From contig NZ_JACHMM010000001.1 of assembly GCF_014204975.1 (NCBI RefSeq), positions 4,650,001-4,714,000 on the forward strand: DNA of 64,000 nucleotides, written 5' to 3'. The stretch comes from Jiangella mangrovi. Its GTDB lineage: Bacteria > Actinomycetota > Actinomycetes > Jiangellales > Jiangellaceae. The notes beneath the pieces were generated by a model, which had not been told where the DNA came from, did not search any database, and was given only the letters and a program-made list of their open reading frames with translations. A program made the position numbers and the translations under genes. This document shows, piece by piece, positions 5,963-62,342 of this stretch. Every line of letters begins with the position of its first letter. The first letter of the stretch is position 1.

Positions 5963-8017
5963 TCAGTCGGCGAAGAGTGGCACCTGCGGCGGCTCCGTGC
6001 CCGTCGGCGCCACACCGCCCTGCTCGAGGGCGAACCGCATGATGTCCGCGAAGGCCGGACCGGCCAGCGCGCTGCCGGAGTTGCCGTTCTGCGGGTCGAA
6101 GAGCGAGACGGTGACGACGTACTGCGGGTCGTCGGCCGGCGCGAAGCCCATGAACGACGAGTTGTAGTCCGCGTAGCAGCCGCACTCGGGGTCGACGCGC
6201 TGCGCCGTGCCGGTCTTGCCGGCGATGCGGTAGCCGTCGACGAGGGCCGGCTTGCCGGTGCCGCCCTCGCCCATGACGGCCTCCATCATCGTGGTGACCT
6301 CGGCGGCCGTGGCCTCGCTGACGACCCGCTCCGGCGCCGACGGCTCGACCGGCGTCTCGCGCCCGTCCGGGCCGATGGTCGCCGCGATGAGTCGCGGGTC
6401 GACCCGCACGCCGCCGTTGGCGATGGTCGCGTACGCCGACGCCATCTGGACCGCGCTGACGGAGATGCCCTGCCCGAACGCGATGTTGTCGCGGGTGAGG
6501 TCGGTGAAGTCGTCGCCCGACGGCAGCCGGCCGCCGGTCTCGCCCGGCATGCCGAGGTCCGGCGCCGTGCCGAACCCGAAGCGCTGCAGGTAGTCGTGGT
6601 AGACGTCCTTGTCCAGCGTCTCGGCGGCCAGGACGGTGCCGACGTTGCTGGACTTCGCGACGATGCCGGCGAGGGTCATCTGGTCCTCGCCGTGGCTGTA
6701 GTAGTCGTGGATCGTCTCTCCGCTGCGCCGGATGCTGTCGGGCACCGAGAACGACGTGGTGTGGTCGGCCAGGCCCTGGTCGACGACCGCCGACATCGTG
6801 ATCGGCTTGAACACCGAGCCGGGCTCGTAGGCGTCCTCGACGGCGGCGCTGCCGCGGTCGGCCGCCTCGGTCTCGCTCGGGTCGGCGGGGTCGAAACCGG
6901 GCGTGGCGGCCAGCGCCACGATCTCCTGCGTGTCGACGTCCATGACGACGGCGACGCCGTCGGCCGCGCCGGCGTTGGCCACCGCCTCGGTCAGGACCTG
7001 CTCGGTGTGCCACTGCACGTCGCTGTCCAGCGTCAGCCGCAGCCCCGTCCCCGCCACCGGGTCGGTGACGTGGTTCGCGGAGCTGTTCGGGATGCGGATG
7101 CCGCCCGGGCTGAACTGATAGGTCGCCTCGCCGTCGGTGCCGGCCAGCGTCTGGTCCATGGACTGCTCGAGCCCGGTGAGCCCCAGGCCGTCGGCGCCGA
7201 GGAACCCGACGACGTTGCCGGCGACGGTGCCCGCCGGGTAGTCGCGGGCGGCCGCGGTCTCGGCGGTGAAGCCGGTCAGCCCGAGCCCGCGGATCTGCCG
7301 CCAGGTCGCCCCCGGCACGCCGCGCGCGATGACGACGTACTGGTCGTCGCCGCTGAGGTCGCGCTGCAGGTCGGCGGCCTTCGTGCCGAGGATGCCCTCG
7401 AGCTGCAGCGCGTACGCGGCCGGGTTCTTCACCTGCGTCTGGTCGACGACGACGTTGTAGGCCTCGACGGTGCTGGCCAGTGCCTCACCGTCGCGGTCGA
7501 GGATGGCGCCGCGCTCGGCCCGCACCGGGACGGTCTTGAGGCCGATCTTGTCGGCCACGGCGGCGTAGGTGGACGCGTCGACGCCCTGCAACTGGATCAG
7601 CCGGCCGCCGAACAGCGACAGGATGACGCAGACGCCGAACAGCGTGACCCGCAGGCGCTTGCGCGGGTCGGCCAGCCGGACGGTGCGCGGCTGCTTCGGC
7701 GGCTTGGGCGCCTTGGGTCGCTTCGGCGGCCTCGCGGCGGGCCGCGACGCCTTGGCCGGCGTCGGCTTGCGAGGAGAGCTCTTCTTGCCCGCCGGCTTGC
7801 GCGCCGCCGTGGCGGCGGCGCCCGCGCGGACCGGGGTCGCGGTCTTGCGGGCCGGTCGGGGCGCGGCGGCCTTGCGCGGCTGGGAGGCCTTCTTCGGCTG
7901 GGCAGCCTTACGGGGCTGGGCGACCTTCCGGGGCTGGGCGGCTTTGCGCGGCGCCGCAGGCTGACCCCGTCGGGCCCCCGCCGCTCCCCCGCGCCCGTCC
8001 GGGCGCTTCGGCGGCAT
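5963..8017 (-). CDS. ftsI: FtsI/PbpB, septal class B penicillin-binding protein
   Basis: This is the division transpeptidase that partners FtsW. In the 684-residue product the transpeptidase motifs are SVFK (S401, K404), SSN (456-458) and KTG (601-603), preceded by a dimerisation/pedestal domain and one membrane anchor at about 123-141. The first 115 residues are cytoplasmic and almost wholly Ala, Pro, Lys and Arg, with repeated QPRKAA-type units, much longer than the short tail of many FtsI proteins. The ATG overlaps the ftsL stop by one base (TGATG). Confidence 0.95.
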   Translation of the reverse strand: MPPKRPDGRGGAAGARRGQPAAPRKAAQPRKVAQPRKAAQPKKASQPRKAAAPRPARKTATPVRAGAAATAARKPAGKKSSPRKPTPAKASRPAARPPKRPKAPKPPKQPRTVRLADPRKRLRVTLFGVCVILSLFGGRLIQLQGVDASTYAAVADKIGLKTVPVRAERGAILDRDGEALASTVEAYNVVVDQTQVKNPAAYALQLEGILGTKAADLQRDLSGDDQYVVIARGVPGATWRQIRGLGLTGFTAETAAARDYPAGTVAGNVVGFLGADGLGLTGLEQSMDQTLAGTDGEATYQFSPGGIRIPNSSANHVTDPVAGTGLRLTLDSDVQWHTEQVLTEAVANAGAADGVAVVMDVDTQEIVALAATPGFDPADPSETEAADRGSAAVEDAYEPGSVFKPITMSAVVDQGLADHTTSFSVPDSIRRSGETIHDYYSHGEDQMTLAGIVAKSSNVGTVLAAETLDKDVYHDYLQRFGFGTAPDLGMPGETGGRLPSGDDFTDLTRDNIAFGQGISVSAVQMASAYATIANGGVRVDPRLIAATIGPDGRETPVEPSAPERVVSEATAAEVTTMMEAVMGEGGTGKPALVDGYRIAGKTGTAQRVDPECGCYADYNSSFMGFAPADDPQYVVTVSLFDPQNGNSGSALAGPAFADIMRFALEQGGVAPTGTEPPQVPLFAD

Positions 8018-8403
8018 CAGCCGTCCCCGCCGCCGGCGGCGGGCGTGCCGCCGGAGCCGGGCAGCTCGAGGAAGCGCGGCGCCTCGTCGGCCGGGACCAT
8101 GCCGAGGCGGTCGGCCTCGTCGGCCAGCGCGTCGGGGGCGCTGCGGGCGGCGACGCGGTCGGCGAGGTCGGTCTGCCGGTCGCGCAGCTCGTCGGTGGTC
8201 GACTGCATCTCGCCGAGCTCGAACGAGCCCTGCTGCAGGGCGGTGTTGAGGATCAGCAGCCCGATCAGGCCGATGCCGAGCACCAGCAGCACCAGCACGA
8301 CGAACGGTGCGCGCGGTGCGTGGGAGGCGCGGGAGGGGACGCTGCGCAGCGACGGCCGGCGCGGCGCGGCGACCGGGGCGTAGGCGGCGCGTTCGGCGCT
8401 CAT
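8017..8403 (-). CDS. ftsL: FtsL-like bitopic division protein
   Basis: This is a 128-residue single-pass membrane protein: a cytoplasmic N-terminus, a membrane segment at about 33-54 ([21 protein letters not shown]), then a predicted coiled coil ([24 protein letters not shown] region) and a Gly/Pro-rich end. Size, topology and its place between rsmH and ftsI match the FtsL/DivIC family, which links FtsW-FtsI to FtsB/FtsQ. Primary sequence is poorly conserved in this family, so the name rests mainly on position and topology. Confidence 0.85.
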
Positions 8404-9368
8404 GCGGCCTCCCTGATCCGCTCGACCGCGCGCAGCCTGGCCGACTGCGCGCGCGGGTTGGCGGCGATCTCCTCGTCCGTGGGCGGCTCGGAGCGGGTCA
8501 GCAGCCGCAGCTCGGGCCGGTGCTCGGGCAGCTCGACCGGGAGACCGTGCGGCGCGGTGCTGGTCGTCCTCGCCGCGAACAGCTGCTTGACGATGCGGTC
8601 CTCGAGCGAGTGGTACGACAGCACGACGATGCGGCCCCCGACGGCGAGCGCGTCGATGGCGGCCGGCAGCGCCCGCTCGAGCACCTCCAGCTCGCCGTTG
8701 ACCTCGATGCGCAGCGCCTGGAACGTGCGCTTGGCCGGGTTGCCGCCGGTGCGCCGGGCGGGTGCCGGGATGGTGTCGCGGATCAGCTCGACCAGCCGGG
8801 GGCTGGTGTCGAACGGCGCACGCTTGCGCTCCCGCACCACCGCGGCGGCGATGCGGGAGGCGAACCGCTCCTCGCCGTAGCGGCGCAGGATGCGGGTGAG
8901 GTCGGCGGCCGGGTAGGTGTTGAGCACCTCGGCCGCCGTGATGCCGGTGGACTGGTCCATGCGCATGTCCAGCGGCGCGTCCTGCGAGTACGCGAACCCG
9001 CGCTCGGCCTCGTCCAGCTGCAGCGACGAGACGCCGAGATCGAACAGGACACCATGCACGCGCCGGATGCCGAGGCCCGCCAAGACGTCGGCGATCCGGT
9101 CGTAGACCGCGTGGACGCCGGTGAACCGGTCGCCGAACGGCGCGAGCCGCTCGGTCGCCCGGGCCAGCGCCACGCGGTCGCGGTCGAGGCCCACCAGGTG
9201 GGCCGTGGAGCTGCGGCGCAACAGGGCTTCGGCGTGCCCGCCGAGACCCAGCGTGGCGTCGACGACCACGCGCCGGTCCTCCGACGGCGCGGACGCGTCG
9301 AGTGCCGGGGCCAAGAGCTCGACGACACGGTCGAGCAGCACCGGGACGTGCGCCCCCTGCTCAGTCAT
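8400..9368 (-). CDS. rsmH: RsmH (MraW), 16S rRNA m4C1402 methyltransferase
   Basis: This SAM-dependent enzyme N4-methylates C1402 of 16S rRNA. The 322-residue product begins [19 protein letters not shown] and has the SAM-binding [14 protein letters not shown], the family motifs [20 protein letters not shown] and DMRMD, and the C-terminal motif [14 protein letters not shown] use the ATG at 9368, which starts just before HVPVLL as in homologues; the frame is open farther upstream but looks non-coding. It overlaps ftsL by four bases. Confidence 0.95.
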
Positions 9369-9539
9369 CGACACCCCCGCGTCTCTTCGTCGTTGCCTCG
9401 TTGCGTTGCCACCTGCGGCTCGTACGACCAGGTCCCCGCCCGCTCGGGCTTGGCTGCCGGCTCTGGCCCCTTGGCACCGGGGAAGTGGTGTCAAGAGGTG
9501 GAGCGGCCGGAGACCTCGTCGTGCGTTTCCGTTCGGTGG

Positions 9540-9971
9540 TCAGAAGATGCCCGGGAGCACCTCCTCGGAGATGTCGGCGAACATCGGCTCCTTCTCGGCC
9601 TGGTACGTCTCCCAGGCCTGCTCGGACCAGATCTCCACCCGCGTCATGGCACCGACGACGGTGCACTCGCGCTCCAGGGCCGCGTACGTACGCAGACCCG
9701 GGGGGATGGTGATGCGGCCCTGCTTGTCCGGGACCTCGTCGCTGGCCCCCGCTGCCAGCATGCGAGCGAAGTCGCGCGTGCCCTTGTGCGTGATGGGCGC
9801 GGCGCGCAGCTGCTCGGTGAACCGGAGGAACTCGGCGCGCGGCCACACGTAGAGACAGCGTTCCTGCCCTCGTGTGATCACGACGCCCTCCGCCAGCTCG
9901 TCCCGGAACTTCGCCGGAAGGATGAGCCGCCCTTTCTCGTCCAGCCGGGGCGTGTGGGTACCGAGGAACAC
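9540..9971 (-). CDS. mraZ: MraZ, transcriptional regulator of the division cluster
   Basis: The 143-residue product consists of two SpoVT-AbrB-type domains, the first starting [25 protein letters not shown] and the second [25 protein letters not shown]. MraZ forms rings that bind spaced TGGG-type boxes in front of its own operon and represses dcw genes in E. coli. The GTG at 9971 has AGGTGG a few bases upstream. About 170 bases of unassigned sequence separate it from rsmH. It is the first gene of the operon, facing the box array at 10003-10089. Confidence 0.96.
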
Positions 9972-10002
9972 GGCCCACCTCCCCGCCGTCCGAGCTTCCG
10001 GA

Positions 10003-49677: not shown

Positions 49678-50078
49678 AGTCCGGTGACGCGGCCGGCGGC
49701 GTCGGTGGTGTAGCGGCCGCGGGAGAGGTCGATCAGCACCAGCGGGTTGCCGAACGGGTCCTCGACGACGGCGACCCGGCCCACCGGGACGTCGGCCGGC
49801 GGCGAGACCACCCGCCCGCCGGCCGCCACGAACCGCTCGGCCGCGGGCTCCACCGCGTCGACCAGCCAGGCGGGACCGGGCGGGACGTCGGTCGCCAGCA
49901 CGAGCTCGCTCTCGGCGTCGGGCAGCCGCGGCCCGGCCTGGCCGATGGCGTCGTGCCGCCAGAGCAACTCGTGTCCCAGCTCGTCGCGGTAGAACGCGAG
50001 CCCGGCGTCGAGGTCGGGCACCCGGACGACCACCGCGTCGACGGCGCGGAGCGCCGGCTCGGGCAGCCGGTCAGGCAT
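49659..50078 (-). CDS. Glyoxalase / bleomycin resistance-fold protein
   Basis: The 139-residue VOC-superfamily protein has [34 protein letters not shown] and the end [22 protein letters not shown]. The first metal-binding position of glyoxalases appears as Val (VVVRV), so it may not be a glyoxalase I. ATG at 50078 lies inside the last codons of miaB, an eight-base overlap, so it is coupled to miaB. The C-terminal codons overlap hairpin D. Confidence 0.82.
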
Positions 50079-51567
50079 GCCCGCAGGCGGGAGCGGCGTC
50101 GGCGACCGGCAGCGGAGCCGGGGCTCCCACCGTCGGCATGCCCAGCAGCACGCCGGGCGCGACCGCAGCCGGCGCCGTCGTCGTCGCTCGCTCGTAGGCG
50201 TCGCCGGCACGGGTGCGCCGCAGCGCCCAGGTGGGTCCGTCGGCGACCAAGTGGTGCGGGGCGGCGTAGCTGACTTGCACCGTCACCATGTCGCCCGGCC
50301 GCGGCGCCTCGGCCCCGGACGGCACCGTGAAGTGGACCAGGCGGTTGTCGCGGGCCCGGCCGGACAGCCGGTGCGTCGCGCCGTCCTTGCGGCCCTCGCC
50401 GTCGGCGACCAGGACCTCGACGTCGCGGCCGACGAAGGCGCGGGACTCGTCCCAGGCCACCTCCTCGACCAGCGAGGCGAGGCGCTGGTAGCGCTCGCGC
50501 ACCACCTCGGGCGGCACCTGGTCGTCCATGGTGGCGGCCGGCGTGCCGGGGCGCTTGGAGTACTGGAAGGTGAACGCCGACGCGAACCGCGCCTCGCGCA
50601 CGACCGACAGCGTCTCTTCGAAGTCGGCCTCGGTCTCGCCCGGGAAGCCGACGATGATGTCGGTGGTGATGGCGGCCTCCGGCATGGCCTCGCGCACCTT
50701 CGACACGATGCCGAGGTAGCGCTCCTGCCGGTACGAGCGGCGCATGGCGCGCAGCACACGGTCGGACCCGGACTGCAGCGGCATGTGCAGCTGGGGCATC
50801 ACCGCGGGAGTCTCGGCCATGGCCGCGATGACGTCGTCGGTGAAGTCGCGCGGGTGCGGGCTGGTGAACCGGACCCGCTCGAGCCCGTCGACGGCGCCGA
50901 CGGTGCGCAGCAGCTTGCCGAACGCGAAGCGGTCGCCGAACTCGACGCCGTACGCGTTGACGTTCTGGCCCAGCAGCGTGACCTCGATGACGCCCTCGGC
51001 GACCAGCGCCTGCACCTCGGCCAGGACGTCGCCCGGACGGCGGTCGCGCTCGCGCCCGCGCAGCGCCGGCACGATGCAGAACGTGCAGGTGTTGTTGCAG
51101 CCCACACTGACGGCGACCCACGCTGCGTAGGGGCTCTCGCGTCGCGACGGGAGGTCGGACGGGAACGTCTCGAGCGCCTCGACGATCTCGACCTGCGCCT
51201 CCTGCTCAACCCGCGCACGGTCGAGGAGGGCGGGCAGCGACCCGACGTTGTGGGTGCCGAAGACGACGTCGACCCAGGGCGCCCGGCGGGTGATCTCGGA
51301 GCGGTCCTTCTGCGCCAGGCAGCCGCCGACGGCGATCTGCATGCCGTCGCGGCCGGCCTTGACCGACGCGAGGTGACCGAGGTTGCCGTACAGCTTGTTG
51401 TCGGCGTTCTCGCGGACGGCGCAGGTGTTGAGCACGACGACGTCGGCCGCCGCCCCGTCGCCCGCGCGCGTGTAGCCCGCGTCCTCCAGCAGCCCGGACA
51501 GCCGCTCGGAGTCGTGGACGTTCATCTGGCACCCGTAAGTGCGGACCTCGTATGTGCGCGCGTTCAT
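50071..51567 (-). CDS. miaB: MiaB, tRNA-2-methylthio-N6-dimethylallyladenosine synthase
   Basis: This radical SAM methylthiotransferase acts on the i6A37 made by MiaA. The 498-residue product has the N-terminal cluster cysteines C13, C49 and C83, the radical [11 protein letters not shown] motif (C157, C161, C164), and a C-terminal TRAM domain near [14 protein letters not shown]. About 50 residues after the TRAM domain (to PACGHA) are an Ala/Pro/Val-rich extension. It overlaps the glyoxalase-fold gene. Confidence 0.95.
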
Positions 51568-51625: not shown

Positions 51626-53977
51626 TCAGCGCACGCGGACGGTGAACCGCTTCGCGTTCTCGAGCTGGCCCTTCACGTCGACGGAGATCCAGCGGAACGT
51701 CGTCGTCGCGGAGACCTCGATGACCTCGCCCGGCTCGCGCATCGCCGGCGCCTCGTAGACCGGCGAGTCCGTCGTGGGCGTGCTGCCGTCGGTCGTGTAG
51801 TGGATCGACGCCGGCTCGCTGGGATCGAACGTCACGTGCACCGTGCCGTCGGCCTGGCGCTCCTGCACCAGCCGCGTCGTCGCCGGACGCTGGTCCTGCC
51901 CGTACGCCATGGCGATCTCGAACATCTCGATCACGCCGCTGGCGTACTCCTGGTACTGCAGGTTCGCCTCGTCCCACTCGGGGATGAAGCCGCCGCCGGA
52001 ATCGAACTCACCGGTCTCCGGGTTCCACTGGACGCCGCCGATCTCCCAGCCGAACGCGTAGATGCCGTAGTTGAAGTACAGGTCCTCGCGGACGTTGCCG
52101 GCCGACGAGTACAGGACGTCGGACGAGCCGCCGACGTTGCCCGGTTGGACGACGGTGTCGCGCAGCCCCTTGACGTTGGAGAGGATCTCCTCGGCCATCT
52201 CCCAGTAGTAGGTCTCGTCGCGCAGCGGCGGGCGCGGCGTGGTGATGCGGCCGTCGGCGATGTAGGCGCCCGGCTGCCAGAACAGCTGCCCGCCGGAGCT
52301 GTGCACCGTCATGAAGAACTTGAGGTTGTCGTAGGTGTCGGCGAGCCAGACGATGTTGCGCGCCTCGGGCTCGGACAGCTTGTCCGGGCCCATGTAGGTG
52401 TCGCTGGTGCACGAGAACGAGGCGCCGTCGTAGCCGTCCAGCGCGGAGCCGACCCGGTAGTTGCGGTTGAGGTCCACACCCCAGTTGCCGCGAGCCAGGA
52501 CGTCCGCCGAACCGGTGATCGGGCAGTGGTTGGTCATGTTGCGCCGCTGGCCGGTGCGGTCGAAGAAGTTGTAGTGACCGCCGTCGGGGTTGTTGGACGG
52601 GACGATGAGGATGTCGACGTTCTCGAGGATCCGCCGGGTGGTGCGGTCGTTGTCGCGGTTGGCCAGCAGCCGCTCGGCCGCCTCCAGCGCCACCAGCGGC
52701 GTCACCCGCTCGCGGGCGTGGTCCTGGGCGATGATCAGCACGCCTGGCCGGGAGCCGTCGCGGTGGTTGCCGATGCGCAGCGCCCGGATCGGGAACGGGT
52801 CGCGCGAGATCGACGGCGGCGCGGCCAGGTTGTCGCTGAGCAGCGTGGGCGCGGCCGCCGCGACCACGCCGGCGCCGGCGTTGCCGCGGTACGTGTACGC
52901 CCGGACCAGCGAGCCGGCCTCGGCGTTCAGCGCGGCCACGACCTGCGCGGCGGTGCTGGTGACGGCGCCGGCCGCGTCGGTCGCCAGGTGGACGGTCACC
53001 GCGTCGCCGTCGACGGTGACGTCCAGCGCGCTGCTCGCGACGCCGGGGGCACGCAGCTCGACGGAGACCTCGTTGCCGCCCTCGTGGCCCCAGGCCCGCG
53101 AGTCGACCCCGACCCGGCTGTCGTTCGCCGTCCCGAAGAGCGCCTGGGACAGCCGGCGGTAGCCGTTGGTCCGGTTCGGCAGCTCGACGATCTCGGTGAC
53201 GCCGGGGTGCGCCTCGTGCAGCGCCTCCAGCCGCTCGTAGACCTGCGTCGGGTTGAGGTAGCCGTCGATGAACCCGTACTCGTACCCCGGCCGGTCGATG
53301 TCGGAGTCGGTCGCGTGCAGCCAGTCGGTAACCTCCGCCGTCGCGGTGCCGCCCAGCGAGCTGGTGACGGTGATCGTGTCCGGCCGCGGGCCGTCGACGC
53401 GCGTCAGCACGCGGTGGTAGAGGTACTCGCCGGAGTCGATGTACGGCTCGATCTCGACGGAGCCGCCGTCCCAGTCCAGCGTCAGCGCCGCCTCCTGCAG
53501 CGCGTCGGACTTCACCTCGACGGACAGGAAGCCCTGGCCCTTGGTGGTGAACCAGTCGACCCGCCCGATGACGACGGTGTCCGCGTCGGCCGCCGCGGTG
53601 GGTGCGACGCTGCGCGCCGCGGGGGCCGACGGTGTCGCCGTCAGCGCCGCGGGGGCCGACTCGCCGGCGACGGCGGCGCCGAAGCCGGCCAGGCCGGCCA
53701 GTTGCTCCTCGGTGACCAGGGCGTCGACCAGGATGCCGTCGGGCAGGCGCTGGAAGTCGCCGGTGAAGTCGTAGCCGGCGTCCTGCATGGCGTACAGGGC
53801 CTCGCTGCCGGGGACGTACAGGCGCAGTACGCGCTCGGCCGGCAGCGGCAGTTCCTGGCGGACCGGGTCGGCGGCCGGCGCCGGATCGTTGGCCTGGGCG
53901 GACAGCCCGGCCGCGGCCAGGCCGGCCGTCGCGGTCGCGACGATCACCGCCCGCGCCGCTCGTCGAGTGATGTTCAT
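51626..53977 (-). CDS. Secreted M14 zinc carboxypeptidase, multidomain
   Basis: The 783-residue product has a signal peptide (1-30), a pro-region, a beta domain around 140-220, then an M14 catalytic domain. Zinc ligands are His420 and Glu423 (DHARERVT) and His559 (MTVHSSGG), with substrate motifs [12 protein letters not shown] and GVDLNRNY and the late GWEIGG. About 100 residues (290-392) are inserted between the pro-region and the zinc site. The C-terminus has a chitobiase-like beta domain ([17 protein letters not shown]). ATG at 53977 follows GGAGG. Confidence 0.9.
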
Positions 53978-54035
53978 GGTGGCGACCTCCTCGGGCACAG
54001 GCCCGGAGTTGGGGGGAAAGCACCACGCAAGCAGC

Positions 54036-54052: not shown

Positions 54053-54083
54053 AACCCACTTGAGCAGCTCTTGAGCTAGCTGG

Positions 54084-55046
54084 TCAGGGCTTCCTTTCTC
54101 GGTAGTGACGCAGCGCTCCCGGATGCAGCTCGACCGGCCCTGTGTAGATCGCCCGGCGGCCGTTCAGCTGGGCAGCGGCCGCCACCCCCTCGGCGATCGC
54201 GGCCCGCCGGTCGAACAGGATCCCGGTGACCTCCGCGATGACGGCCTCGTCCGCCTCCGCGCTGGTCACCAGGAAGTTGGGGACGGCCATGGTCACGACG
54301 GGCTCGGCCAGGCCGTACGCGCCGGCGGGCACGACGGCCTGCCGGTAGACGCCGCCGTGGGCGCGGCTGACCTCGTCGATCACCGGTCGCAGCTCCACCA
54401 GCCGGATCGGCACCGCCGCGGCCAGCTCCGCCACGCCCGGTGTCGGCAGGCCGCCGGACCAGAAGAACGCGTCGAGCCGGCCCTCGCGCAGGGCGGCGAT
54501 GGACGCGTCGATGCCCAGCGGGTCGAGCAGCAGCTCGCCCTCGGCGACGCCGGCCGCGGCGAGCAGCCGCCGGGCGATGACCTCGGTGCCGGAGCCGACC
54601 GCGCCGAGCGACACCCGGCGGCCGCGCAGGTCGCCCAGCTCGGTGACGTCGGACGCGGCCGGGACGACCACGTGGACGAGGTCGTCGTAGAGGCGCGCGA
54701 CCGACCGGATCGGCAGCGGCCCGTCGAACGGCGCCCGGCCGGCGACGGCGTCGGCCGCGGCATCGGCGGCGGTGAAGCCGAGCAGCGCCTCGCCGGTGGC
54801 CACCAGCCCGAGGTTCTCGACCGACCCTGCGGTCTCGGCGACGCTCGCGCCGACGCCGAGCCGCTCGGCCAGCTCGCCGGCCAGCCGGTCGCCGTAGCTG
54901 TAGTAGACGCCGGTGGTGCCGCCGCCGGCCACCACGATCGGCGCGGCCGCCGCCGCGGGCTCCGGCCCGCCGCCCACACAGCCGCCGGTGGTCGCGACCA
55001 CCGCCGTCAAGGCCGCGGCAGCCAGCACGGCCCGCACGCGTCTCAT
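54084..55046 (-). CDS. TAXI-family solute-binding protein
   Basis: The 320-residue product has a lipoprotein-like signal (TTGGC near residue 23; the lipobox is weak) and the TAXI (TRAP-associated extracytoplasmic immunogenic) fold: VAGGGTTGVYYSYGDRLAGEL, TAGSVENLGLVATGEALLGFTAAD, LGAVGSGTEVIARRLL. TAXI proteins usually feed TRAP transporters for glutamate/oxoglutarate-like acids, but no TRAP membrane subunit is present here. The ATG overlaps the histidine kinase stop (ATGA), so it more likely serves as the kinase's ligand-binding partner. Confidence 0.88.
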   Translation of the reverse strand: MRRVRAVLAAAALTAVVATTGGCVGGGPEPAAAAAPIVVAGGGTTGVYYSYGDRLAGELAERLGVGASVAETAGSVENLGLVATGEALLGFTAADAAADAVAGRAPFDGPLPIRSVARLYDDLVHVVVPAASDVTELGDLRGRRVSLGAVGSGTEVIARRLLAAAGVAEGELLLDPLGIDASIAALREGRLDAFFWSGGLPTPGVAELAAAVPIRLVELRPVIDEVSRAHGGVYRQAVVPAGAYGLAEPVVTMAVPNFLVTSAEADEAVIAEVTGILFDRRAAIAEGVAAAAQLNGRRAIYTGPVELHPGALRHYRERKP

Positions 55047-56419
55047 GCGCCCGGCGCCTCTCGCGGGACCCACAGCGTGACTGCGAGCCCGCCGCCGTCG
55101 GCCGCGGCCACCTCGAGGCGCCCGCCGCAGGAGCCGAGGAACTCGGTGGCGATGGCCAGCCCGAGTCCGGCACCGCGGACGTTCTGGTGCCGTGGGCTGC
55201 GCCAGAACCGGTCGGCCACGTGCTCGATCTCCTCCGGGTCGAGGCCGGGCCCGCGGTCGCGGACGGTGACGCGGGCGTGGTCGCCGGCCGGCTCCACCCG
55301 CACGTCGACGGCGCTGCCGGCGGGGGCGAACTTCAGGGCGTTGTCGACGACGGCGTCCAGCGCGCTCTCGACGACGATGTCGTCGACCTCGCACCAGACC
55401 TCACCGCGCACGTCCAGGACGACGGCGACGCCGGTCTCGCGGGCGACCGGCTGCCAGGCGTCCAGCCGGCCCCGGACCAGCGCTCCGAGCTCGGCCGGGG
55501 CCGCGCCCGCCGCCGCCTGGTCGCGGGCGAGCATCAGCAGGGCGTCCAGGATCCGGGCCAGGCGCCGGCCCTCCTCGCGGACGTGCTCGATCTCCGAGCC
55601 CGCGTCGTCGCCGAGCGAGAAGTGCAGGTCCTCGATGCGCAGCAGCAGCGCGTTCAGCGGGTTGCGCAGCTCGTGCGAGGCGTTGGAGACGAACTCCTGC
55701 TGCTTGTAGATGAGCTGCTCGACCTTCTCGGACATGCCGTTGAACGCCGTCACGACGCGGCGAAGCTCCGGCGGGCCCGAGGCGCCGGCGATGCGCGCGC
55801 CGACGTGGCCGTGCCAGATCTCCGTCATGGCGGCGTCGACCATGCGCACCGGCCGCAGCACCCAGTGCGCGAGCCGGCTGGCCAGCAGGACGCACGCGGC
55901 GACGGCCGCGACCCCGCCGAGCAGCACCACGATCAGCTGCCGCCGGTGCTGCTCGGCCAGCTGCCGGCTGCTGGACGACGTGACGACGGCGCCCAGCAGG
56001 TCGCCGCTGTCGAAGACCGGCTCGGCGACCAGCAGCTCCCCCGCCGACCACGGCGACATCTCGTCCAGCGTGCTGTCGGACCGGCCGGAGAGCGCGGCGT
56101 CGACCACCCGCTGCCGCGGCGCCGCGAGGTCGTCGACGCGCAGCCCGTTGGTCGCCCAGATGCCGCCGCTGTTGTCGAGCACCGCCGCCTCGATGCCGTA
56201 GACGTCGCGGTAGCGGTCCAGCTCGCGGTCGACCAGCTGCGGGTCGCCGGCCGCGAACGCCTGCCGGGCCGTCGCGACGAACAGGTTCGCGTCGGCCAGC
56301 CGGTCGAGGTACAGGTCCTGGTGGCCCGCGTGCGACAGGCTTCGGGCGTAGGCGACGCCCAGCACCACCAGCAGCGCGGCCAGGGGGATGGTGAGCACCG
56401 CGATCAGACGGGCGCGCAC
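55043..56419 (-). CDS. Membrane sensor histidine kinase
   Basis: The 458-residue product has membrane segments at about 5-25 and 161-183 with an extracytoplasmic domain of about 135 residues between. Then follow HAMP (about 186-238), the phosphoacceptor His249 (SNASHELRNPLN) and an ATPase domain with N-box DNALKF, G1 DRGPGLDPEEI and G2 GAGLGLAIA. GTG at 56419 begins six bases after the response regulator stop. It is the partner of the regulator upstream. Confidence 0.92.
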   Translation of the reverse strand: MRARLIAVLTIPLAALLVVLGVAYARSLSHAGHQDLYLDRLADANLFVATARQAFAAGDPQLVDRELDRYRDVYGIEAAVLDNSGGIWATNGLRVDDLAAPRQRVVDAALSGRSDSTLDEMSPWSAGELLVAEPVFDSGDLLGAVVTSSSSRQLAEQHRRQLIVVLLGGVAAVAACVLLASRLAHWVLRPVRMVDAAMTEIWHGHVGARIAGASGPPELRRVVTAFNGMSEKVEQLIYKQQEFVSNASHELRNPLNALLLRIEDLHFSLGDDAGSEIEHVREEGRRLARILDALLMLARDQAAAGAAPAELGALVRGRLDAWQPVARETGVAVVLDVRGEVWCEVDDIVVESALDAVVDNALKFAPAGSAVDVRVEPAGDHARVTVRDRGPGLDPEEIEHVADRFWRSPRHQNVRGAGLGLAIATEFLGSCGGRLEVAAADGGGLAVTLWVPREAPGA

Positions 56420-56424
56420 CCGGC

Positions 56425-57090
56425 CTACCGCGAGGCCAGGCGGTAGCCGACGCCGCGGACGGTCTCGATGACGTCGTCGGGCCCGAGCTTGCGCCGGATG
56501 GAGGCCACGTGCACCTCGAGGCTGCGGCCGAGCCCGCGCCAGCTGGTCTGCCACACCTCGCGCAGGATCCGCTCGCGCGGCAGCACGACGCCGGGGTGGC
56601 GGGCCAGCAGCGCCACGACGTCGAACTCCTTCTTCGTCAGCACCACCGTCCGCGACCCCGCCTCGACCCGGCGCGCCGCGAGGTCGATGACGACGTCGCC
56701 CACCCGCACCAGCTCGCCGCCGGCGCTCACCCGCGAGCGGCCGCGGCGGTCGACGGCGCCCATGCGGGCGAGCAGCTCGCGGACGTCGTACGGCTTGACC
56801 AGGTAGTCGTCGGCGCCCACTTCGAGGCCCTTGACCCGGGCGTTGACCTGCGAACGCGCCGTCACCATGATGACCGGGACGTCGGAGACCCTGCGGATGC
56901 GCCGGCACAGGTCGATCCCGTCCATGTCGGGCAGCCCCAGGTCGAGCAGCACCATGTCGGTGCCGGCATCGACGGCACGCAGCGCGGCCGCCCCGTCCTC
57001 GGCCCGCACGGTGTCGTAGCCCTGCCGGGTGAGCACCGCCGCCAGGGCGCCGGCCACATGGTTGTCGTCCTCGACCAGCACCACGCGCAT
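56425..57090 (-). CDS. OmpR/PhoB-family response regulator
   Basis: The 221-residue product has a receiver domain (acidic pair EDD 7-9, phosphoacceptor Asp50 in LLDLGLPDMDG, Lys99 in DYLVKPYD) and a C-terminal winged helix (LTKKEFDVVALLARHPG, LEVHVASIRRKLG, VRGVGYRLA). ATG at 57090; GTG at 57099 is a possible longer start. It is the first gene of the regulator-kinase-TAXI operon. Confidence 0.93.
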   Translation of the reverse strand: MRVVLVEDDNHVAGALAAVLTRQGYDTVRAEDGAAALRAVDAGTDMVLLDLGLPDMDGIDLCRRIRRVSDVPVIMVTARSQVNARVKGLEVGADDYLVKPYDVRELLARMGAVDRRGRSRVSAGGELVRVGDVVIDLAARRVEAGSRTVVLTKKEFDVVALLARHPGVVLPRERILREVWQTSWRGLGRSLEVHVASIRRKLGPDDVIETVRGVGYRLASR

Positions 57091-57170: not shown

Positions 57171-57209
57171 GCTGGACGCCGCCGAGCTGCGGTCTCGGCG
57201 GCGTCCAGC
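57171..57209 (-). terminator. Terminator hairpin between second M14 gene and response regulator
   Basis: A perfect 16-base stem (57171-57186 with 57194-57209) with a 7-base loop begins 24 bases beyond the M14 stop and separates the peptidase gene from the two-component operon. Confidence 0.85.
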
Positions 57210-57232: not shown

Positions 57233-58705
57233 TCAGCGGCCCACGCCGGACCGCGCCGCCGCCCGGACGATCGCGCCGCCCTCACGCGTGGTGAGGACGC
57301 CGTCGGCGCGCAGCTCGTTCACCACCGCGGTGACGTGCCGGACGAACGCACCGTGGCCGGCCCACTCCGCGTCCTCCTGCACCCGGTTGTTCACGGTGCA
57401 GCCGTCGGCGAGCGTCGTGTTGGGCACCCCGCTGTCCACACCGCCGACGACGACGGTGCCGCGCAGGTCCGGGTACTCGCGCCGGGCCTCGACGATCGGG
57501 TAGCGCGCGTCGCCGTCGAACAACAGCGGCACGATCGGCCGCGCCTCCTGCGCCATCGGCACGAACCCGCGGCCGGAGGCGTAGGACTCGACCCGGAACA
57601 GGTCGCGGTGCAACTCGGTCGCGGCGAGCTGGTCGTCGGTGAGCACGTACGCGCAGGCGGCCGGCGACAGGACCTCCTCAGGTGTCGGCGGGAGGTTGTC
57701 CTGGCCACCCCAGAAGACCGGCGCACCCGAGGCGCCCTTGACCAGCTCGTTCGCGCGGGCCTCGGCGATGGCCTGCTGCACCTCGTCGCCGTTCTCGATG
57801 GCGAAGTCGAGCGTGGAGTAGAAGCCGAGCTCCTGCATACGAACCCGCTCCAGGGGCGGGTTGGCCGTGCTGCTCTCGGTCAGCAGGCCGACGCCGCCGC
57901 GCAGGCCCGCGACGTTGCGGAAGATGCGCTCGTCGCCCTCGGTGCTCGACGTGTACCAGTCGACCACGTAGTCCTCGTCCTCGAGGACGTCGCGCATGCT
58001 CTGCGCCAGCTCGCCGGAGAGCGCCCGCAACGGATCGTCCACGTTGAGGTTGCGCGGCCACAGCATCGCGAAGTCCAGCGTCCGCGAACCCATCTCGTGC
58101 GCGTCCCAGGAGATCGTGGGCCGCACGTCGCGCATGACGCGCCCGATGGCCTGCGATTCCAGCTCCTCCAGATAGTGGTGGTCGCGGTTGATGTCGGTGC
58201 GGTTGGCGTTGCCGCGGGTGTTCGCCTCGCGGCCGTCCGGGTTCGCCGTCGGCACCACCAGGACGGTGGTCGTCCGCAGGAACTCCAGGAGCGCCGGGTC
58301 CTCGGTGAAGGCGAGGTCGCGGATCTCCTGCAGGCACATCTCCCGCGGCGCCGGCTCGTTCCCGTGCTGGCTGCAGACGATGAACACGGTCTTGGTGCCG
58401 TCCAGCTCCTCCACCGGCGGCGGTGCCGGGTTGCCGATGCGGGCCAAGTGCATCGGCCGGCCCTGCAGCGTGGTGCCGAACTGCTCGATGTCGAGCCTCT
58501 CGGTCAGCGCGTCGATGTCCTCCAGGTAGGCCTGCTCCTCGGCGAACGTGGTCCAGTCGCCGCCCTCGCGCAGCTCGAATCCGGTCTTCGGCAGGTCCTC
58601 GGCGGCTGTCGCCGTCGTCGCCGCCGCGGCCAGCACGGCCGCCGTCGTCGCCGTCGTCGCCAGCACCGCCAGGACCGCTCGCAGTCGGGCACGTCCCATC
58701 GTCAT
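57233..58705 (-). CDS. Secreted M14-family metallopeptidase
   Basis: The 490-residue product has a signal peptide (about 1-35, Ala/Thr-rich) and an M14 catalytic core with zinc motif His114/Glu117 (SQHGNEP), NPDGREANTRGN, TDINRDHHYLEE and WDAHEMGS carrying the third ligand. The layout suits a peptidoglycan- or protein-directed carboxypeptidase of the succinylglutamate desuccinylase-like branch; the substrate is not visible. It is unlike the other M14 protein at 51626 in length and motifs, so the two are not recent duplicates. Confidence 0.9.
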   Translation of the reverse strand: MTMGRARLRAVLAVLATTATTAAVLAAAATTATAAEDLPKTGFELREGGDWTTFAEEQAYLEDIDALTERLDIEQFGTTLQGRPMHLARIGNPAPPPVEELDGTKTVFIVCSQHGNEPAPREMCLQEIRDLAFTEDPALLEFLRTTTVLVVPTANPDGREANTRGNANRTDINRDHHYLEELESQAIGRVMRDVRPTISWDAHEMGSRTLDFAMLWPRNLNVDDPLRALSGELAQSMRDVLEDEDYVVDWYTSSTEGDERIFRNVAGLRGGVGLLTESSTANPPLERVRMQELGFYSTLDFAIENGDEVQQAIAEARANELVKGASGAPVFWGGQDNLPPTPEEVLSPAACAYVLTDDQLAATELHRDLFRVESYASGRGFVPMAQEARPIVPLLFDGDARYPIVEARREYPDLRGTVVVGGVDSGVPNTTLADGCTVNNRVQEDAEWAGHGAFVRHVTAVVNELRADGVLTTREGGAIVRAAARSGVGR

Positions 58706-59034
58706 GAAACCTCCTCGTCGGGGCCGGGCCGGCCGCCCTGCCGCTTCGTGGCTCCTGCCCCCGCACCCGCATGCAAGCAGCGCCCGGCCCCGGGGTGAAC
58801 CCGTGTTGAGCAGGTGCTGAGGTTTCGGCCCGGCCGCGGGCGATCCGTGACCGGAACGGCTGCGTCAGGTCACGCTCCGAGTTCCCAGTTCGTTACCAAG
58901 AGGTGACCTCAACCGCAGCTCAAAGGGCATGACAGGCGGTCGTCTCCCCCATACGGTTGACGCTTGTCCCGGGTTTCGTCGTGAAGGTGGTGGTGTGAGT
59001 CCATGAGCCGGAACCGCAGCCGAGGCGTCTCCCG
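58706..59034. promoter_or_regulatory. Divergent control region, M14 gene / gluABCD
   Basis: This 329-base stretch carries no gene. AGGTCAC near 58873 and GTGACCT near 58902 form a 7-bp inverted repeat about 30 bases apart. TTGACG near 58961 could be a -35 for gluA. No strong -10 was found. Confidence 0.35.
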
Positions 59035-59790
59035 ATGAGCGTCGAGACGCCCGCAGGCCCGCTCGTCGAGCTGCGCGACGTCAACAAGCACTTCGGGAGC
59101 CTGCACGTCCTGCGCGACATCAACCTGAGCGTCGACCGCGGCGAGGTCGTCGTCGTCATCGGGCCGTCCGGGTCGGGCAAGTCCACGCTCTGCCGCACCA
59201 TCAACCGCCTCGAGACCATCGACTCCGGCACCATCGCGGTCGACGGCCGGCCGCTGCCCGAGGAGGGCAAGGCGCTGGCCCGGCTCCGCGCCGACGTCGG
59301 CATGGTCTTCCAGGCGTTCAACCTGTTCGCGCACAAGACGGTGCTGCAGAACGTCACGCTCGGCCCGATCAAGGCCAAGGGGGTGAAGAAGTCCGAGGCG
59401 GAGAAGTCGGCCATGGAGCTGCTCGACCGCGTCGGTGTCGCCGACCAGGCCGCGAAGCTGCCGGCCCAGCTGTCCGGCGGCCAGCAGCAGCGGGTGGCCA
59501 TCGCCCGCGCGCTGGCCATGAAGCCCAAGGTCATGCTGTTCGACGAGCCCACGTCGGCACTCGACCCCGAGATGATCAACGAGGTGCTGGACGTCATGAT
59601 CACCCTCGCCCACGAGGGCATGACGATGGTCGTCGTCACCCACGAGATGGGGTTCGCGCGCCGGGCGGCGAACCGCGTCGTCTTCATGGACGCCGGCAGC
59701 ATCGTCGAAGAGGCCACGCCTGAGGAGTTCTTCACCAACGCGCAGAGCGACCGGGCCAGAGATTTCCTCAGCAAGATCCTGACTCACTGA
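59035..59790 (+). CDS. gluA: GluA, glutamate/polar amino acid ABC transporter ATPase
   Basis: The 251-residue ATPase has Walker [11 protein letters not shown]-loop [10 protein letters not shown], signature [15 protein letters not shown], Walker [16 protein letters not shown] and H-loop VVTHEMGFA. The motif set and operon order gluA-B-C-D match the corynebacterial glutamate importer. ATG at 59035; no strong ribosome site is seen. Confidence 0.94.
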
Positions 59791-59824
59791 GAACGACGAA
59801 AGTCATCGTTAAGGAGTGCACACG

Positions 59825-60724
59825 ATGCGTACCCGATCGACCCTGCGGCGCTACAGCGCCCTGGCTGCGACGGCGCTGACCGCGACCCTCGTCCTGGCCG
59901 CGTGCGGCGACGACGACGGTGGCGACGACGGCGGCGACAGCGGCTCCGAGCCCACCGCCGAGGCCGGTGACTTCCCCGAGGGCAGCACCATGGCCGAGCT
60001 GGCCGAGGCCGGCAGCATCACCGTCGGCACCAAGTTCGACCAGCCGCTGTTCGGCCTGGTCGGCCCCGACGGCACGCCCGTCGGCTTCGACGTCGAGATC
60101 GCCAAGATCATCGCCGGCGAGCTGGGCATCAGCGAGGACAACATCGAGTGGGTCGAGACCGTGTCGGCCAACCGCGAGCCGTTCATCGAGGACGGCCAGG
60201 TCGACATCGTCGTCGCCACCTACACCATCAACGACGAGCGCAAGCAGCTCGTCGACTTCGCCGGCCCGTACTTCATCGCCGGCCAGACGATCATGGTGCT
60301 CGAGGACAACAGCGACATCAACGGCCCCGACGACCTCGCCGGCCGCCGGGTCTGCTCGGTCGAGGGCTCGACGCCCGCCGAGAACATCCGCACCAACTAC
60401 CCCGAGGCGGAGCTCTTCCCGACCGGCGCGTACTCCGACTGCCTCGAGCCGCTGCGCAACGGCCAGGTCGACGCCGTCACCACCGACAACGTCATCCTGT
60501 CCGGCTTCGTCGACCAGAACCCGGGCGAGTTCAAGCTCGTCGGCGACCCGTTCACCGAGGAGCCCTACGGCATCGGCCTCACCCACGGTGACACCGAGTT
60601 CCGCAACTGGATCAACGACGTCCTCGAGGAGTCCTTCGAGGACGGCCGCTGGGCCGAGGCGTGGGAAGAGACCGCGGGCGCGGTCCTCGAGACGCCGGAG
60701 CCGCCGCAGGTCGACCGCTACTGA
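59825..60724 (+). CDS. gluB: GluB, glutamate-type binding lipoprotein
   Basis: The 299-residue product has a lipoprotein signal with LAAC (VLAACGDDDGG) and an acidic linker, then a type 3 periplasmic-binding fold (ITVGTKFDQPLFGLVGPDGTPVGFDVEIAKIIAG, VDIVVATYTINDERKQLVDFAGPYF). It captures the amino acid for GluCD. AAGGAG stands eight bases before the ATG at 59825. A hairpin follows the stop. Confidence 0.94.
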   Translation: MRTRSTLRRYSALAATALTATLVLAACGDDDGGDDGGDSGSEPTAEAGDFPEGSTMAELAEAGSITVGTKFDQPLFGLVGPDGTPVGFDVEIAKIIAGELGISEDNIEWVETVSANREPFIEDGQVDIVVATYTINDERKQLVDFAGPYFIAGQTIMVLEDNSDINGPDDLAGRRVCSVEGSTPAENIRTNYPEAELFPTGAYSDCLEPLRNGQVDAVTTDNVILSGFVDQNPGEFKLVGDPFTEEPYGIGLTHGDTEFRNWINDVLEESFEDGRWAEAWEETAGAVLETPEPPQVDRY

Positions 60725-60816: not shown

Positions 60817-61467
60817 ATGGACACCGTGATCGACGAGCTCCCGTTGTACTGGGAGGGGTTCACCACGACCCTCGCGCTCACCCTGCTGTCCGCCGTCATC
60901 GCGCTGGTGGTGGGGACGATCCTCGGTGCCTTCCGGGTGTCGCCGGTGCCGACGCTGCGCTGGTTCGGCACCGCGTACGTCGAACTGGTGCGCAACACGC
61001 CGCTCACGCTGGTCTTCATCTTCTTCGTCTTCGTGGCGCCGCAGCTGGGCTGGACCCCGGACGACTTCTTCATCCCGGCGGTCGTCGCGCTGTCGGTCTA
61101 CACCGCGGCGTTCGTGTGCGAGGCGGTCCGCTCGGGCATCAACAGCGTCGGCCTGGGCCAGGCCGAGGCGTCGCGGGCCATCGGGCTGACGTTCCCGCAG
61201 ACGCTGCGGCTGGTCGTGCTGCCGCAGGCGTTCCGGACGGTCGTGCCACCGTTGATCAACATCTTCATCGCGCTGACGAAGAACAGCTCCGTCGCCGGCG
61301 GGTTCTTCGTGGCCGAGCTGTTCGGCGTCGCCCGGCAGCTCACCAACGCGCACCCGGCCGACATCATCCCCGTCCTGATCGGCATCGCGGCCTTCTACCT
61401 GGTCATCACGATTCCGGCCGGAATCCTCGCCGGCTACGTCGAGCGGAAGGTGGCGTTCGCCCGATGA
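60817..61467 (+). CDS. gluC: GluC, amino acid ABC transporter permease
   Basis: The 216-residue permease has the HisM/GlnP signature (VELVRNTPLTLVFIFFVF, AVRSGINSVGLGQAEASRAIGLTFPQTLRLVVLPQAFR) and about five membrane segments. It follows gluB by 92 bases and overlaps gluD by four (ATGA). Confidence 0.93.
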   Translation: MDTVIDELPLYWEGFTTTLALTLLSAVIALVVGTILGAFRVSPVPTLRWFGTAYVELVRNTPLTLVFIFFVFVAPQLGWTPDDFFIPAVVALSVYTAAFVCEAVRSGINSVGLGQAEASRAIGLTFPQTLRLVVLPQAFRTVVPPLINIFIALTKNSSVAGGFFVAELFGVARQLTNAHPADIIPVLIGIAAFYLVITIPAGILAGYVERKVAFAR

Positions 61468-62342
61468 GCTCCATCCTGTACGACGCCCCCGGTCCCCGGA
61501 CCCGCCGCCGGACCATGTTGTGGTCGGTCCTCGGCGCCGTGTTCGTCCTGGGCCTGCTGTACCTCGCCTACCGTCAGCTCGACTCGCGCGACCAGTGGGA
61601 CCCCGAGCGCTGGCAGATCTTCACCGACCCGCCGCAGGGCCAGACCGCGGGCGACGTCTGGAGCTCGCTGCTCATCGACGGGCTAGGCGCGACCCTGCGG
61701 GCCGCTGGCATCGCCGCCGTCCTCGCGCTGGCGCTGGGCGTGATCCTGGCGGTGCTGCGCATGTCGGTCGTGGGTGCGGTGCGCTGGCCGACGACGGTCG
61801 TCATCGAGTTCTTCCGCGGCCTGCCGGTCGTGCTGCTGATGTTCTTCGGCGTCATCGCCATCGGGCTGCCGATCTTCTGGGGCGTCGTCTTCGGCCTGGT
61901 TGTCTACAACTGCGCGATCTTCGCCGAGATCCTGCGGGCCGGCATCGTGTCGCTGCCGCGCGGGCAGTCGGAGGCCGCGTACGCCATGGGGCTGTCACGG
62001 CGGCAGACGCTGTTCACCGTCCTGCTCCCCCAGGCCGTCCGCCGCATGCTGCCGTCGCTGGTGAGCCAGCTGGTCGTGCTGCTGAAGGACACCTCGCTGG
62101 GCTTCATCATCGGCTACGCCGAACTGCTGCGACGGCTGCAGCTGAACACCCAGTTCTTCGGGCAGCGCTACTGGTTCCAGTTCTTCGTCGTGGGTGCGGC
62201 CATCTACATCACCGTCAACTTCACGCTGTCGCGGCTCGCGGTCTATCTGGAGCGGCGCGGCACGAAGAAGGCGGCCGGTGGCGTGGCCAAGGCCGACGAC
62301 GCGGCCATCGGCGGGACCAGCGCCACCGGCGTCTCGGTCTAG
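61464..62342 (+). CDS. gluD: GluD, amino acid ABC transporter permease
   Basis: The 292-residue partner permease has an extra N-terminal membrane segment (TMLWSVLGAVFVLGLLYLAY), then the HisM-type core (EFFRGLPVVLLMFFGV, AEILRAGIVSLPRGQSEAAYAMGLSRRQTLFTVLLPQAVR). ATG overlaps the gluC stop. It ends nine bases from the convergent rny stop. Confidence 0.93.
   Translation: MSSILYDAPGPRTRRRTMLWSVLGAVFVLGLLYLAYRQLDSRDQWDPERWQIFTDPPQGQTAGDVWSSLLIDGLGATLRAAGIAAVLALALGVILAVLRMSVVGAVRWPTTVVIEFFRGLPVVLLMFFGVIAIGLPIFWGVVFGLVVYNCAIFAEILRAGIVSLPRGQSEAAYAMGLSRRQTLFTVLLPQAVRRMLPSLVSQLVVLLKDTSLGFIIGYAELLRRLQLNTQFFGQRYWFQFFVVGAAIYITVNFTLSRLAVYLERRGTKKAAGGVAKADDAAIGGTSATGVSV

Follow-up and report, generated by a model that had tools for sequence, protein, structure and literature searches.

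A TAXI-family binding protein as a candidate sensor beside a GluR-GluK-like kinase and regulator in Jiangella mangrovi

Introduction

The GluR-GluK system of Streptomyces coelicolor (SCO5778/5779) is reported, in reviews including PMC9739842, to respond to glutamate, and its regulator to bind the gluABCD promoter. A comparable locus lies in a 64-kb stretch of Jiangella mangrovi DNA (C1:4650001-4714000, the window in what follows), where an OmpR-type response regulator and a histidine kinase are again encoded beside gluABCD. Unlike GluR-GluK, which is described as two components, the window adds a gene for a TAXI-family binding protein, and genes for M14 carboxypeptidases appear to share the operator. 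The regulator-kinase-TAXI trio is quite probably a three-component version of the Streptomyces glutamate system, with the TAXI as dedicated sensor. The comparison with GluR-GluK was made on Streptomyces genomes other than that of S. coelicolor itself.

Binding proteins that signal to kinases are described elsewhere. In arsenic sensing by AioXSR and ArrXSR a binding protein, a kinase and a regulator are co-encoded, and the binding protein signals without transporting (PMC5908839). The window is similar in that its binding protein is encoded with kinase and regulator and without a transporter of its own, and differs in that AioXSR and ArrXSR use another binding-protein family and ligand. In Bordetella pertussis the tripartite-transporter binding protein BctC has been shown to signal to the kinase of BctDE (PMC5812351), although unlike the window TAXI it is of the TctC family and also transports citrate. 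The glutamate/aspartate binding protein AatJ of Pseudomonas syringae works with the AauSR two-component system (PMC7386598), and is unlike the window TAXI in belonging to an importer regulated by its own system. A glutamate-binding TAXI outside a TRAP transporter is found in the TAXI-GltS pair of B. pertussis (BP0403; PMC12344293); it differs from the window protein in being dimeric, in having an extra domain and in being paired with a transporter, and neither "histidine kinase" nor "two-component" appears anywhere in that paper. By analogy the window trio would resemble AioXSR, BctC-BctDE and AatJ-AauSR in function. Among the literature matches listed (titles and beginnings of abstracts, most subscription journals lying outside the search) none was on a TAXI protein that works together with a histidine kinase.

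The regulator-kinase-TAXI operon

The trio and the sensor region of its kinase are as follows.

56425..57090, minus strand: OmpR-family response regulator (GluR-type), 221 amino acids, with Pfam Response_reg and Trans_reg_C
55043..56419, minus strand: sensor histidine kinase (GluK-type), 458 amino acids, GTG start, with Pfam HAMP, HisKA and HATPase_c
55940..56338, minus strand: extracytoplasmic sensor region of the kinase, about residues 28-160, a helix-strand fold in the model, boundaries approximate
54084..55046, minus strand: TAXI-family binding protein (sensor TAXI), 320 amino acids, likely a lipoprotein, with NMT1_3 and TIGR02122 and Cys at residue 23

The genes form one tight operon on the minus strand, running from regulator to kinase to TAXI. 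A sequence-only reading of this DNA had placed the trio at exactly these coordinates (54084-57090), and its family assignments are confirmed by Pfam and TIGR02122. The four-base overlap that it reported between kinase and TAXI is an ATGA shared by stop and start, its estimate of about 135 residues for the extracytoplasmic domain agrees with residues 28-160, and the gap between regulator and kinase, given by it as six bases, is in fact five (gccgg ahead of the kinase GTG). The glutamate-importer context, the relationship to GluR-GluK, the operator repeats and the M14 peptidase genes described below go beyond what it had covered. The trio and the same flanking genes are kept in five of 12 Jiangella genomes, that of J. 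mangrovi counted, and regulator-kinase-TAXI groups were found again in other actinomycetes by a contig scan.

The TAXI assignment is secure, with a score of 252.2 bits to profile TIGR02122 against a curated cut-off of 84.35. The predicted structure has a mean predicted local distance difference test value (pLDDT) of 92.8, and Foldseek places it with 1us4 (template modelling score, TM, 0.82/0.88; root-mean-square deviation 2.1) and 8s4j (TM 0.81/0.86), both glutamate-bound TAXI structures. A Cys behind a hydrophobic stretch is invariant in the 17 kinase-linked sensor TAXIs aligned and may be a lipoprotein anchor. The extracytoplasmic region of the kinase gave no match in a Pfam search of the window proteins, and in fold searches with the whole kinase the matches covered mainly residues 208-456, the core, the fold of the sensor region not being matched.

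Kinase-linked and TRAP-linked TAXI proteins

The sequence-only reading had argued from the lack of a TRAP membrane subunit in the window that the TAXI may be the partner through which the kinase senses its ligand. There is indeed no DctQM membrane partner encoded with the window TAXI within the 64 kb. A search of the rest of the genome gives one DctM match, at C1:5337597, about 0.6 Mb from the trio and outside the window; it is a fused DctQM of 688 amino acids, and its immediate neighbour is another TAXI gene. Because the genome thus holds a TAXI-TRAP set elsewhere, absence from the window is a weak argument when taken alone. The candidate role draws better support from DctQM having its own TAXI, from the tree described next and from the Streptomyces genomes that have a TAXI and no DctM match; a mirror-tree test for specific docking of TAXI on the sensor region, given further below, was negative. 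A second regulator-kinase pair has the third TAXI match of the genome at a distance of about 1.2 kb. Across Jiangellales a TAXI match is present in 17 of 22 genomes, and in the 28 stretches examined from that order every TAXI has a regulator-kinase pair or DctQM in view.

Contigs were scanned with the alignment of 17 kinase-linked TAXIs, the best 80 of 147 relatives being kept, a set biased to the query. After removal of five duplicate loci (L063, L064, L065, L093 and L107) a table of 120 TAXI proteins was obtained, 73 kinase-linked, 37 TRAP-linked and 10 neither. Twenty Microbacterium rows were removed before a 100-row tree was built, and further rows before the pocket-pair, kinase-tree, mirror-tree and second TAXI tree analyses. 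In the 100-TAXI tree one branch (Shimodaira-Hasegawa-like approximate likelihood ratio test, SH-aLRT, 100, quick method) has all 54 kinase-linked proteins on one side and all 37 TRAP-linked proteins on the other, with two unlabelled rows on the former side and seven on the latter, so that a single change of state suffices. In a second tree all 33 Streptomycetaceae TAXIs group with the kinase-linked side; one change is needed if they are counted kinase-linked, and six if they are counted TRAP-linked. Across the actinomycete TAXI trees the separating branch has SH-aLRT values of 99-100 by the quick method. The window TAXI falls in a 43-row set (SH-aLRT 97) with 25 of the 33 Streptomycetaceae proteins, and the histidine kinase tree has broadly the same groups, placing the window kinase and the Streptomyces glu-locus kinases in one 36-row group with a support of 82 only. 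The TAXI tree is unrooted and gives no direction of change, and several long branches meet in both the TAXI and the kinase trees.

Gene neighbourhoods follow the same division. The trio adjoins DctQM in Phytoactinopolyspora, Kribbella, Spongiactinospora and Kineosphaera, and at such loci DctQM has its own second TAXI, from the opposite side of the tree, in 10 of 10 cases. Linkage of TAXI to kinase persists down to about 35% identity.

In four Micromonospora loci (L106, L108, L111, L118) a second TAXI lies about 4 kb beyond a DctQM-TAXI pair and is not kinase-linked in the stretch seen. In one other genome (G014; L060 6625-8552) the TAXI-TRAP genes look shortened, the TAXI to 255 amino acids and the DctM match to positions 108-404 only; they are possibly decaying while the trio in the same genome is intact.

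The glutamate importer and the Streptomyces loci

Flanking the trio on both sides are M14 carboxypeptidase genes. Divergent to it are the genes of a complete gluABCD-type importer, which has a binding protein of its own, and one M14 gene lies between regulator and gluA. The names gluA to gluD were assigned from family and gene order.

59035..59790, plus strand: gluA-type ABC ATPase, named by family match and gene order
59816..60724, plus strand: gluB-type solute-binding protein, SBP_bac_3
60817..61467, plus strand: gluC-type permease, named by family and gene order
61464..62342, plus strand: gluD-type permease, named by family and gene order
57233..58705, minus strand: upstream M14 zinc carboxypeptidase, probably secreted, Peptidase_M14 9.3e-20
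51626..53998, minus strand: downstream M14 zinc carboxypeptidase, probably secreted, Peptidase_M14 1.6e-30
50071-51567: open reading frame labelled "miaB", a tentative name given here with no family match behind it

The trio adjoins gluABCD in Microbacterium, Leucobacter, Pseudonocardia, Pseudofrankia and Jiangella, no kinase being detected at one of the two Pseudofrankia loci. In Streptomycetaceae the order is miaB, TAXI, kinase, regulator, gluABCD, with extra genes sometimes between TAXI and kinase (L151, L154, L189); all of these genes stand together in L151, in L154 and in L152 with L189, and the regulator-kinase pair is beside gluABCD in these and in L156. The window keeps this order with the M14 genes inserted. 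Its regulator is 54-56% identical to those beside gluABCD in L151, L152, L154 and L156, and its gluA is 73-81% identical to the 59 Streptomyces gluA matches.

All 61 Streptomyces genomes in the sample, taken from the genus of Streptomyces sp. CG 926 (L115), have a TAXI that matches the sensor alignment. Sensor and TRAP TAXIs are not told apart by this search on its own: the DctQM-adjoining TAXI of one genome (G032) also matched. Of 30 TAXI loci returned, 27 have a kinase and/or miaB within 1.5 kb, three (L172, L175, L178) have neither, and none has DctQM. In 32 of the 61 genomes, chosen non-randomly, the distance from TAXI to gluA was checked: it is below 13 kb in 29 and below 5 kb in 26, is 24 kb in G072, and in G037 and G085 the TAXI is far away or on another contig. 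The corresponding gene of S. coelicolor is presumably SCO5786.

It might be that the TAXI is a transport protein for gluABCD, for the distant DctQM or for some other permease, and owes its place in the operon to co-regulation only. The TAXI proteins of the cited papers do serve transporters, TRAP or GltS (B. pertussis), and the J. mangrovi genome does have one DctQM, as all five trio-bearing Jiangella genomes have DctM; for that reason the argument from absence of DctM rests on Streptomyces. There, 45 of the 61 genomes have no DctM match at E 1e-3, 13 have matches passing the curated cut-off, and the one strong match (6e-60, G032) lies between two TAXI genes of its genome. In J. mangrovi DctQM has a TAXI of its own and gluABCD a binding protein of its own, GltS (PF03616) is without a match in the genome, and some trios elsewhere have no gluABCD and no DctQM in the stretch examined (for example L098, L110, L122). 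A transport role therefore seems improbable.

Split or partial TAXI matches occur in three Streptomyces genomes. In G030 and G064 the match is broken into two short pieces next to each other, G064 also having a full-length match; in G033 partial matches are spread over two contigs, and one of them contains an internal TGA. These are broken genes or assembly errors.

A CTCA direct repeat as candidate operator

Aligning the intergenic regions of the five Jiangella loci exposed direct repeats with an 11-nucleotide period, which make CTCA-N7-CTCA the predicted site of the regulator.

58908..58923, plus strand: predicted regulator operator CTCAACCGCAGCTCAA, 111 nucleotides upstream of gluA, kept in 5/5 loci of the genus
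58806..58821, minus strand: predicted operator CTCAGCACCTGCTCAA, 100 nucleotides upstream of the upstream M14 gene, kept in 5/5 loci of the genus
54060..54075, minus strand: predicted operator CTCAAGAGCTGCTCAA, 61 nucleotides upstream of the downstream M14 gene, CTCA-N7-CTCA in 4/5 loci of the genus

The longer pattern CTCAR-N6-CTCAA occurs three times in the window, always at this locus (gluA and both M14 genes), against a shuffle mean of 0.04, and eight times in the genome of 7.16 Mb, where the backward-read pattern occurs four times. As the pattern was first derived from Jiangella loci the window count is post hoc, and the independent test is that on Streptomyces, Microbacterium and Phytoactinopolyspora loci. 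Over all scanned loci, near-duplicates included, there are 60 period-11 sites within 350 nucleotides upstream of a known same-strand gene, no other period in the range 7 to 19 giving more than eight. CTCA-N7-CTCA stands before gluA in Microbacteriaceae, Pseudofrankia and Streptomycetaceae, and before TAXI-DctQM in Kineosphaera and four Phytoactinopolyspora loci (L043-L046). In Streptomyces, where 20 of 29 linked gluA loci were compared with 20 of 30 other gluA matches, the forward-strand repeat is upstream of gluA in 20/20 GluRK-linked loci versus 0/20 unlinked paralogues, one of the latter having it on the reverse strand.

In L041 and L042 the repeat precedes an M14 gene and also lies about 3 kb before TAXI-DctQM. 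The latter copy in L041 (Phytoactinopolyspora) directly precedes an amidohydrolase gene. That gene (7324-9990, minus strand) stands first, ahead of the TAXI-DctQM genes, and its product, of the amidohydrolase family, begins with a twin-arginine-like sequence.

The binding pocket

In VcGluP, E125 contacts the amino group of the ligand (PMC11574862). Compared with the VcGluP contacts the window TAXI keeps Y45 and S75, has Ala in place of Q93 and has Asp in place of E125. The E125 position is Glu or Asp in all 35 sensor TAXIs beside gluABCD (many of them from Microbacterium) and acidic in all 16 miaB-adjacent Streptomycetaceae sensor TAXIs; it is Asn in all eight second-copy Streptomyces sensor TAXIs. 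At loci with both TAXI kinds the acid/Asn state agrees between the two in 10 of 10 (three acid, seven Asn), though these loci represent about five lineages and the pocket rows are not independent. The sequence evidence makes an amino acid the likely ligand of the window TAXI, with glutamate as the best guess.

Weighing the three-component reading

Several results weigh against a TAXI that senses glutamate for the kinase. As to the ligand, an acid at the E125 position is also found in 9 of 43 sensor TAXIs without gluABCD in view, and an independent-pairs test of acid pocket residue against gluABCD linkage yields two independent comparisons only, too few to decide. Further, severe loss of binding in VcGluP was seen only with Y45A and Q93A, which makes E125 a weak marker (PMC11574862), and it is Q93 that is Ala in the window protein. 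Given these points and the non-independence of the pocket rows, an amino-acid ligand is put as likely and no firmer. As to the operator, Pseudonocardia gluA (L100) and the TRAP genes of Kribbella (L125, L132) and Spongiactinospora (L116) lack the repeat in its exact form upstream. The glu-linked Pseudonocardia trio also groups elsewhere in both the TAXI and the kinase trees, on long branches.

As to the contact between TAXI and kinase, the correlation of TAXI distances with those of the kinase sensor region is 0.71, lower than the 0.87 for the core of the kinase. In the mirror-tree analysis of 52 loci the partial TAXI-sensor correlation is 0.00, and 250 of 500 permutations gave as high a value or a higher one; there is therefore no specific TAXI-sensor docking signal. 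Moreover, a review reports that GluK itself bound glutamate in biolayer interferometry, glutamine not being recognised (PMC9739842).

This binding, the lack of TAXI-sensor covariation beyond that of the core, and a sensor region that is conserved across 39 aligned kinases and takes the form of a folded domain in the model (mean pLDDT of the kinase model 83.9) all favour the main rival explanation, that a GluK-type kinase senses glutamate directly and the TAXI is accessory, as a ligand-released inhibitor, a buffer or a modulator of sensitivity. A matching TAXI in every Streptomyces genome sampled is, however, more in keeping with a required part than with an optional one, and we consider an accessory TAXI rather unlikely. 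That the genes are merely a conserved neighbourhood, TAXI and kinase having no functional link, is very hard to credit. In Streptomyces the TAXI gene is often on the opposite strand and in some cases several kb away from GluK, and G037 and G085 have it far from every gluA match; yet second copies elsewhere in some genomes (L005; L159-L166) keep kinase and TAXI side by side, and the linkage survives divergence to the identity given above. Gene linkage and phylogeny suggest a functional TAXI-kinase link.

Proposed circuit and its meaning

In the three-component reading the TAXI, tethered outside the membrane, would bind glutamate or a similar amino acid, close on it and, so loaded, act on the extracytoplasmic region of the kinase. 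The kinase would then phosphorylate the regulator, which would bind the CTCA-N7-CTCA direct repeats with their 11-nucleotide period and control gluABCD and the two M14 genes flanking the trio; the direction of this control, like the ligand and the docking, is something that we infer. In this way an amino acid derived from peptides would be released, sensed and taken up through one circuit, with breakdown and uptake matched to supply.

On balance we also favour a wider picture, in which a branch of actinomycete TAXI proteins left transport to become the dedicated ligand subunit of GluR-GluK-like systems. GluR-GluK itself may then be three-component in perhaps every Streptomyces, and one conserved 11-nucleotide direct-repeat operator would tie such systems to the importer next to them, be it glutamate ABC or TAXI-TRAP, and to peptidases or amidohydrolases. 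If so, a component has been missing from one of the few S. coelicolor two-component systems with a reported signal, and it becomes a testable question whether GluK, the TAXI or both detect glutamate. The TAXI proteins would also exemplify a transport protein lineage turned signalling lineage, and CTCA-N7-CTCA would serve as a sequence rule for finding the regulon, peptidases included, in many soil actinobacteria.

Further features

The second regulator-kinase pair of the J. mangrovi genome, with its more distant TAXI, is at C1:3748947-3753346 (L005 4948-9347), beside an apparent liv-type ABC operon. The TAXI group to which it belongs has Ser at the E125 position in 15/15 members, several of which have RRxxL N-termini resembling those of twin-arginine translocation substrates. 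Within the window a GC-rich inverted repeat (GCTGGACGCCGCCGAG...CTCGGCGGCGTCCAGC, 57171-57209) lies between the upstream M14 and regulator genes; it is kept in five loci of the genus and is possibly a terminator.

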